In this document: piece by piece, positions 8,505 to 62,935 of the stretch
Layout of the letters: each line of letters starts with the position of its first letter
How positions within the stretch are numbered: position 1 is the first letter of the stretch
Assembly: GCF_020883455.1 (NCBI RefSeq)
Contig: NZ_CP086615.1
Location: 1,860,001 to 1,924,000, forward strand
From: Spiribacter halobius
GTDB lineage: Bacteria > Pseudomonadota > Gammaproteobacteria > Nitrococcales > Nitrococcaceae
DNA length: 64,000 nt
Reading direction: 5' to 3'
Program-made: the position numbers and the translations under genes
The notes under the pieces: generated by a model
Told to the model about the DNA's origin: nothing
Databases searched by the model: none
What the model saw: only the letters and a program-made list of their open reading frames with translations

Positions 8505-9695
8505 TCACTTGCGCCCGAACACGCCCTCTAGGCGATCCATTGCCTTCTGCAGGTTTTCCATGCTGGTGGCATAGGAGATTCGGACGTAACCCGCCAGGCC
8601 GAAGGCTGTGCCCGGCACCAGTGCCACGTTGGCCTGCTCGATGAGGTGCTCCGCGAGCTCGGTGTCGTTGCTGACCCCGTCCAGGGCATCGATGGCGCCC
8701 TTGACGTTCGGATAGCAGTAGAACGTGCCCTCGCAGGTGATGCACTCGACGCCGCGCATGCCGTTGAGCCGGCCGACGACGTAGTCATGACGCTCCTTGA
8801 AGGCCTCGACCATTGGACCGACCACCCCTTGGTCGCCGTCCAGCGCAGCGACGGCCGCCGCCTGGGAGACCGAGCTCGCCCCGGACGTGCTCTGGGACTG
8901 GATCTTCTTCATCGCGCCGATCACCCGTGCGGGACCTGCGGCATAGCCGATGCGCCAGCCGGTCATGGCGTAGGCCTTGGAGACGCCATTGACCACCACC
9001 GTGCGGTCCATGAGGTCCGGGCAGGCCATGACGATGTTGCAGAACGGCTCGCCCGCCCAGAGGATGTGCTCGTAGATGTCGTCGCTCGCGATCAGCACCT
9101 GCGGGTGGCGCCGCAGCACCTCGCCCAGGGCCTCCAGCTCGGCACGGCTGTACGCGCTGCCGGTCGGGTTGGAGGGGCTGTTCAGGATCACGATCCGGGT
9201 GCGGTCGGTAATGGCGGCGTCGAGCTGCTCCGGGGTGATGCGGAAGCGCTGGTCCTGGCCGGCCTCGATGATCTCCGGCACGCCGTCGGCGAGCAGCGCC
9301 ATGTCCGGATAGGACACCCAGAACGGCGCCGGGATCACCACCTCGTCGCCCTCGTCCAGCACCGCGGCCATGAGGTTGTACAGGCTCTGCTTGGCGCCGT
9401 TGGAGACGAGGATCTGGTTGCCCTCGTAGTCCAGGTCGTTGTCGCGCTTGAGCTTGTTGCGGATGGCCTGCTTCAGCGCCGGGGTGCCGTCCACCGCGGT
9501 GTAGCGGGTCTCGCCGTTGTGGATCGCCTCGATGGCGGCCGCCCTGATATGCTCCGGCGTGTCGAAGTCGGGTTCCCCCGCGCCGAGCCCGATGATGTCA
9601 TGTCCCGCCGCGCGCATCTCCGCGGCCCGCGCCGTGACGGCCAGCGTCGGCGACGGCTTTACCCGCTGAACGCGCTTCGCCAGTTGAATGTCCAA
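8505..9695 (-). CDS. Class I/II pyridoxal-phosphate aminotransferase (aspartate type)
   Basis: 396 residues, the family length. SKAYAMTGWRIGYAAG carries the lysine that binds PLP; NSPSNPTG and ASDDIYEHILW are further active-site motifs. It moves amino groups between aspartate and 2-oxoglutarate or similar acids. Its closest look is to the type Ib (AspC/AatA) enzymes of Gram-negative and thermophilic bacteria. It stands alone on the minus strand. Substrate cannot be fixed from sequence. Confidence 0.9.
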   Translation of the reverse strand: MDIQLAKRVQRVKPSPTLAVTARAAEMRAAGHDIIGLGAGEPDFDTPEHIRAAAIEAIHNGETRYTAVDGTPALKQAIRNKLKRDNDLDYEGNQILVSNGAKQSLYNLMAAVLDEGDEVVIPAPFWVSYPDMALLADGVPEIIEAGQDQRFRITPEQLDAAITDRTRIVILNSPSNPTGSAYSRAELEALGEVLRRHPQVLIASDDIYEHILWAGEPFCNIVMACPDLMDRTVVVNGVSKAYAMTGWRIGYAAGPARVIGAMKKIQSQSTSGASSVSQAAAVAALDGDQGVVGPMVEAFKERHDYVVGRLNGMRGVECITCEGTFYCYPNVKGAIDALDGVSNDTELAEHLIEQANVALVPGTAFGLAGYVRISYATSMENLQKAMDRLEGVFGRK

Positions 9696-9714: not shown

Positions 9715-9982
9715 TACTAATCGTCTCGACAGTATTGTCAGGTCTCAGAGCCCCGGAGCGGGCCGGCGGCAAGGCGCGGGAGCGCCGGCGTGGTGATTCC
9801 ACGTCAAGCGAGCGCAACGCCGCCGCCGGCCCGCTCCGGGGCTCCCGCAGGGCGAGGCTGTGCGCCGCTGCGGACTGCGTTGCTCGCCGCTTATGTAGCT
9901 CGGCTACACTGCGCGACTCGCGCCTTGCCGCAGCGGCGCACAGCCTCGCTGAGACCTGACAATACTGTCGAGCCGATTAGTA
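9715..9982. repeat. 268-bp composite palindromic element with terminal inverted repeats
   Basis: The ends (9715-9748 and 9949-9982) are 34-base inverted repeats with one mismatch. Inside lie two perfect hairpin stems: 23 bp (9748-9770 with 9822-9844) and 22 bp (9852-9873 with 9928-9949). Each loop holds a related core: an AAGGCGCG box, a small hairpin, and a GAGC(GC)AACGC box, the second core inverted. It fills the space between the aminotransferase and uvrB. No transposase is encoded, so it looks like a non-autonomous element or a large REP/BIME-type structure. Confidence 0.85.
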
Positions 9983-10028
9983 TGCCGGCCCGTGATGATA
10001 CGGCAAAGGGTTGACCCTCTGAACCGCC

Positions 10029-12053
<2,025 letters not shown>

Positions 12054-62751: not shown

Positions 62752-62935
62752 CTAGCCCGGATATCTCACCGATTCACGGCTGCGGGCGCGGATCTGGCGG
62801 GCAGGCCCGCGTTGCGCTCGGCCCGGGTGCTCGACGTACTGTCGAGTACGCCTGCGCGCCCGAGCTCTCCCGCGCCTTGTCCTGCCCGCCATCTCCACGC
62901 CCTCGCTGCGCGAATCGGTGAGATATCCGGGCTAG
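62752..62935. repeat. 184-bp composite palindromic element bounded by 26-bp repeats
   Basis: Inverted 26-base copies (62752-62777 and 62910-62935, one mismatch) enclose a 10-bp stem (62796-62805 with 62881-62890) and a central hairpin CTCGAC-GTACT-GTCGAG (62830-62846). The loop contains GCGTTGCGCTCG (62809-62820) and CTCCCGCGCCTTG (62867-62879), the same boxes as in the 9715-9982 element. It ends three bases before the hemerythrin stop. Confidence 0.8.

Follow-up and report, generated by a model that had tools for sequence, protein, structure and literature searches.

What is a 268-bp nest of inverted repeats doing between two genes of Spiribacter halobius, and how should it be regarded: as a mobile element, as a source of structured RNA, or as both? 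The question is raised by positions 9715-9982 of the window (i.e., the whole stretch of 64,000 nucleotides that was analysed), where an element assigned to neither strand fills most of the gap between an aspartate aminotransferase-like gene (start at 9695, minus strand) and uvrB (start at 10029, plus strand), both named from a reading of their translations. A preliminary description had seen in it a nested structure that no gene explains, and this observation has been confirmed as real: only mechanical open reading frames cross the 268 bp, and the arms of the 34-bp terminal inverted repeats (9715-9748, plus strand, and 9949-9982, minus strand) pair in 33 of their 34 bases. Inside these outer repeats lie two hairpins spanning 97-98 bp, namely hairpin A (9748-9844, plus strand), with arms of 23 bp (9748-9770 and 9822-9844), and hairpin B (9852-9949, minus strand), with arms of 22 bp (9852-9873 and 9928-9949), the arms being 100% complementary in both. 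Each hairpin carries a head with the boxes CAAGGC and AACGC (AAGGCGCG...GCAACGC in both), read on the plus strand in A and on the minus strand in B; the head of B is thus reversed relative to that of A, and the related loop cores are set head to head, just as they had first been described. The covariance model presented below matches them at 9754-9840 (70.9 bits) and 9857-9942 (70.5 bits), respectively. The spacer between them, CCGCAGG (9845-9851, neither strand), forms a mini-hairpin with a GNA loop on the plus strand and a UNCG-type loop on the minus strand. Folding of the whole element gave z = -16.3 as RNA and z = -16.4 as DNA, and in neither case did any of 200 shuffles do as well, which excludes chance for this fold.

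On the uvrB side, the right end of the element forms a promoter-like site aimed at that gene (CTGACA-16-TAGTAT, 9956-9983, plus strand), which is a consensus match only. The same gene is preceded by a degenerate element (L086, about 1455-1695 of G030:C6; 27.9 bits) in a genome from another family of the order, with TACTAACC ends that are similar to those of the window element, the right one lying directly against the uvrB start codon. Either this element has been kept from an ancestor or the site has been struck twice.

Is the element a mobile one? It had been proposed as a possible non-autonomous transposable element, an idea that would have failed if no further copies had been found. Copies were observed: on its single contig of 4.17 Mb, the genome has six near-full ones at 93-100% identity (five measure 267-268 bases, and the sixth is matched along 256), together with many partial copies. 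Beyond it, 19 of the 59 genomes searched (its own included) match the window family at E 0.001, several of them through short pieces only, and an exact piece of the window-family end occurs in 33 named stretches, eight of which are labelled Ectothiorhodospiraceae; the pattern comprised 16 fixed bases, and other stretches among the 33 may be due to chance. Some copies with window-family ends have no core: three of them (L071, L072 and L074), of about 62-80 bp, carry no head, which implies that the heads are unnecessary for movement. In two other places (L059 and L070, in G000 near 819.5 kb and 2868.5 kb), the same ends surround a REP-like inverted repeat, GGGAGCGG...CCGCTCCC. No match to the window family was found on plasmids or phages, and a plasmid search with the terminal inverted repeats alone gave just weak matches beyond the plasmids already known.

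The terminal repeats and the copies thus support the transposable nature of the element, as do the empty sites of a sister family. A sister element (L153, in genome G074) is absent from three congeners. In two of them (G325 and G326) the flank alignments overlap by 2 bases and one TA stands where the filled site has two (GGTACTG when empty, GGTA-element-TACTG when filled), while in the third (G221) the overlap is of 3 bases in the first alignment, the second stops short of the joint, and the empty sequence reads GTTACTG. Because the filled right side has an extra T, the exact end of L153 is uncertain by a base. Target-site duplication, for which a check had been proposed, is observed as TA for the sister family, and for the window family it is at most inferred: TA stands at both ends in four of the six full copies, and no empty site is available. 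In the window element itself, the TA at 9715-9716 and that at 9981-9982 are a likely target duplication by the rule taken from the sister family, and, if they are one, the element proper comprises positions 9717-9980. TA also precedes 53 of the 63 examined ends of family D (see below), and among 18 further copies with printed ends several have TG/CA or mixed flanks rather than TA/TA. The idea that the hairpin arms are inverted target copies made at insertion, which had been prompted by a 76-bp core-free copy, was rejected, since the empty sites show the TA duplication only.

Which enzyme would move these elements is less clear. An IS630 origin, suggested by the TA target, was discarded after PF13358 (DDE_3) gave no match in the window's genome. 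Neither did DUF4096 (PF13340), which we take to be an IS5-type transposase, match in that genome; it did so in 7 of the 12 genomes searched, above the cut-off in six. A DUF4096 match that stays under the cut-off begins just inside ends GGGCCTGTTAACAC in G265; another, with a stop codon, begins inside AGGCCTGTTGACAT in G074; and the ends of an IS present in five copies in G326, GGTTCTGTTGACGTTTC, resemble those of L320, a relative with other ends. No transposase with window-family ends was found in profile searches of the genome that covered DDE_3 and DUF4096 only. Our best guess is that DUF4096-type enzymes serve some sister families, and no mover has been identified for the window family. The part of the literature available on IS5-type MITEs (PMC3189936) describes, for instance, MITEPsy1, a MITE marked 'IS5?' with CTAG or YTAA as target. 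As far as that part of the source goes, the window element is likewise small and non-coding and has terminal repeats, and the broken or short DUF4096 transposases of two other genomes lie just inside ends equal or similar to those of one sister family; however, the window-family ends look different, the duplication seen here is TA, and a conserved double-hairpin fold, common to several kinds of ends, is found inside.

That fold reaches well beyond one family. A genome-wide search by the loop boxes, as the preliminary description had envisaged, revealed two further families with other ends in the same genome: family C (L251), with ends TAGGGAAGCGCTGATCAATTC and two heads, and family D, with ends TAGCCCGCATATCTCACCGATT and one head on a long stem, with 40 scored places. 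A copy of family D lies within the window at 62753-62934 (one head, 27.7 bits, TA on both flanks), and single matches to D ends occur there at about 33117 and 5927. Across the class, the box pattern was found in 42 of 274 sampled genomes (own included), the reversed control giving none among the matches listed; at least 4 of the 30 pattern loci fetched look like coding DNA without arms (L137, L141, L147 and L162) and, as probable chance matches, were not counted as members. At least eight kinds of ends surround the heads, mostly next to TA in the copies read: CTAAYC-like, GGGAARCRCTGAT, GCCCGCATATC, GGGCCTGTTAACAC, GAGCCTGTCTGTG, GTGCTCTATCAA, GGGTCTGTTGACG and GGGGGCGTTCTCAATTAG. Some of these are similar among themselves (the CTGTT group), others are not. 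The covariance model finds matches in 145 of the 398 genomes sampled from the phylum, the window's own among them (E 1e-4, strict filters). The best E is 1e-10 or lower in 85 of these 145, of which 39 belong to the class and 46 lie beyond it; a single family accounts for 38 of the latter. L320 matches four plasmid records, two from Azotobacter, one from Pseudomonas aeruginosa and one from Halomonas, and the phage collection gave no match with either of the two queries (the window family and L320). Identity to an already named repeat family would also have undone the preliminary description, and within the scope of Rfam no credible match emerged: the window element gave only hairpin matches to microRNA families, far below the gathering threshold, and the loci of nine other members gave none up to E 0.1. 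No description of these heads was recognised in the literature, which does not establish their absence from print, supplements and most subscription papers being outside the scope of the search.

What, then, is a head? The 49 non-redundant heads share one layout: an arm comes first, then CAAGGC and a 7-bp helix (P2), followed by a small loop, a hairpin (P3), P2', AACGC and the second arm. The invariance of the boxes is largely built in, since they were part of the search, and P2 positions 3-7, P3 and the arms lay outside the search pattern. The arms pair in at least 12 of 14 positions in 138 of 151 unique heads, against 201 of 2997 mismatched combinations, under a rule that counts G-T as a pair. 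Covariation of P2 and P3 in the 49 heads was strong: the observed score was 0.577, whereas shuffling gave a mean of 0.191, with none of 500 shuffles reaching the observed value, and sliding gave no more than 0.149; the slid control matters more because relatedness can inflate the shuffled one. The covariance model across copies, which had been put forward as a check, separates well: in an even 400-kb sample of the genome, ten matches reach at least 29.6 bits and the next best is at 20.1. Ten heads in such a sample suggest, as a rough guess, about a hundred copies in the genome.

In 99 loci selected as holding, or possibly holding, elements, 168 model matches were observed, 36 of which stand alone; the 66 adjacent pairs comprise 65 that are head to head, one in tandem and none tail to tail. 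The gap is of 20 bases or less in 61 of the 65 head-to-head pairs, and in 45 of these 61 close pairs the spacer is CC(TNCG)GG or its complement CC(CGNA)GG. A mini-hairpin of this type has high stability, in RNA form on one strand and in DNA form on the other, a general property that was not computed here.

Are these palindromes kept for the sake of the double strand or of one of its strands? If they were corrected by template switching, or selected as double-stranded DNA, G-T and A-C should be equally frequent on a given strand. In the arms of 50 non-redundant hairpins (strand-symmetric score), the strand that reads the boxes was observed to carry 39 G-U and 4 A-C (p 3e-8; 26 hairpins against 3). 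The strictest threshold, used for this count, was set from mismatched arms that include relatives, with 112 rows passing and 89 failing; when the threshold was loosened the counts were 79 to 8 and 92 to 9, the 89 rows that failed, in which real and false ones are mixed, had 145 to 28, and a filter counting G-T as a pair led to 79 to 7. Separated by position, G-U exceeds A-C by 48 to 9 in left pair members (45 hairpins), 47 to 7 in right ones (41) and 67 to 9 in single heads (31), counts that are weaker evidence than that of the 50 hairpins because the model slightly favours G-U. Given that left and right members lie on opposite strands of one element, a mutation bias due to the direction of transcription or replication does not explain both. 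As a control of the method, the same count was made on outer repeats, where neither strand is the sense strand, and 44 two-head elements gave 50 to 52; an even count is expected for two-head elements, and it shows only the absence of a method bias. Moreover, P2 of the 49 heads contains G-A or A-G in 62 cells and C-T or T-C in 3. Based on these two excesses on the box-reading strand, the target of selection seems to be the sense strand in its folded state, as inferred from pairing statistics alone. The folded form is most likely RNA, because wobble pairs cost least in RNA, and this too is an inference that does not exclude single-stranded DNA. The wobble pairs are also lopsided: across the 50 hairpins, from several families, 32 place U in the 5' arm with G opposite it in the 3' arm and 7 have the reverse arrangement, an excess that pairing alone does not explain and that counts against the explanation preferred here.

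That explanation, which we favour with some confidence and without regarding it as settled, is that of a non-autonomous MITE moved in trans, whose payload, the head, is selected as a folded single strand, the two facing heads serving either direction of transcription. A transposase that recognises the ends of the element would insert it at TA, and RNA is the likeliest form of the folded strand on which selection would act. With one sense head directed inward at each end, an entering transcript would meet a correctly oriented head first, whichever the orientation of the element. The head might then act on incoming host transcripts through a host protein, by 3'-end processing, protection or termination, making insertions tolerable in either orientation; this last step, with a conserved host factor as the reader, is inferred without any expression data and remains rather doubtful. 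The suggestion that the element is a source of structured RNA has gained indirect support only, from the covariation and the strand-biased pairs. On a larger scale, the heads might constitute a mobile RNA motif common to the phylum, a single conserved hairpin read by a host factor of an age that would let much of the phylum share it, and captured by, or persisting through, transposon families with different ends, often mounted one per strand so as to work in either orientation of the element, a proposal that we consider tentative and to which we would give a little less than even credence. It is common practice to classify bacterial MITEs by their ends and to regard them as remnants of transposons, whereas here it is the inside that is conserved, under several kinds of ends and in genomes outside the class, and it bears a strand signature that ballast would not be expected to leave. 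If this is true, the motif, a structured RNA (or single-stranded DNA), is widespread and has no credible counterpart in Rfam, and the head is a concrete bait for finding the host factor.

The rival that survives best takes the heads for single-stranded DNA signals read by a structure-specific enzyme or by a fork process, for example as a second transposase recognition site per end. G-T and tandem G-A pair in DNA too, and the DNA fold of the window element has z = -16.4. The one inward head at each end of a two-head element resembles a subterminal binding site, yet family D, with a single head and 40 scored places, has multiplied well, and core-free copies exist; in addition, the variety of ends points to more than one transposase, and still the head is shared. 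The location of the D copies bears on the same issue. In 29 placed copies, no orientation preference with respect to genes was found (between tandem genes, 4 sense and 6 antisense; 8 copies are convergent, 4 divergent and 7 unclassified, with rough gene calls), which does not favour a role of the RNA in cis. The D sense heads lean against the replication fork in 28 of 40 places (p about 0.017 with the terminus set at 2.4 Mb, and 0.006 to 0.039 under other terminus settings, the skew being drawn from 20 stretches), a lean that is more readily predicted by a DNA model and could point to single-stranded DNA; nevertheless, this is a weak test, and only one of several. All in all, we regard a single-stranded DNA signal as unlikely, without being negligible.

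It is less probable still, and in our opinion a poor prospect, that these are ordinary MITEs in which template switching keeps the long palindromes perfect, with heads that are functionless inherited ballast. Palindrome correction is expected to give perfect arms of differing sequence, and the ends of one sister family do match those beside a DUF4096-type transposase fragment. Nonetheless, such correction should be strand-symmetric, and the sense strand has 39 G-U against 4 A-C and 62 G-A against 3 C-T; left and right pair members are biased alike on opposite strands; and the direction of the pairs is fixed in 65 of 66.

The element reads as a MITE, and what distinguishes it within that class is a head shared between families, the constant head-to-head arrangement of the pairs, and its strand signature. 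Correia/NEMIS and ERIC are also elements with terminal inverted repeats, able to carry promoters or RNase sites and to fold as RNA (PMC10969869), and the portion of that source at hand does not mention such heads or a head-to-head order; the sequences were not compared. According to the accessible part of another report (PMC2718517), the Pseudomonas fluorescens repeats R6 (177 bp, inverted repeats of 34 bp) and R200 are, like the window element, intergenic repeats, some with long inverted repeats, and here again sequences were not compared.

Finally, that these are REP/BIME-type repeats mobilised by a RAYT (a Y1 tyrosine transposase), a link that the preliminary description had considered, can practically be dismissed: head-to-head hairpins resemble REP dimers, as far as the consulted part of the source describes them (PMC3733652), and the genome has three Y1 matches, but no head scores, and none of the ends of the three families appears, in the 3-kb loci around those matches, and the sister-family insertion goes with a TA duplication. 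REP dimers, BIMEs and REPINs are inverted hairpin pairs present in many copies, as is the case here, judging from the available parts of two papers (PMC3733652, PMC3116915). REPs, in the partial view that the first of them affords, measure 20-40 bp, have a GTAG or CGTC tag and are often accompanied by a RAYT; in contrast, the hairpins described here span 97-98 bp inside outer repeats and have the conserved boxes CAAGGC and AACGC, and that definition is not met (PMC3733652). As an observation apart, two Y1-type (RAYT-like) matches lie side by side at G000:C1:445187-446140 with equal scores, likely as a tandem duplication, and a REP-like match, which is not a head, is found near them.
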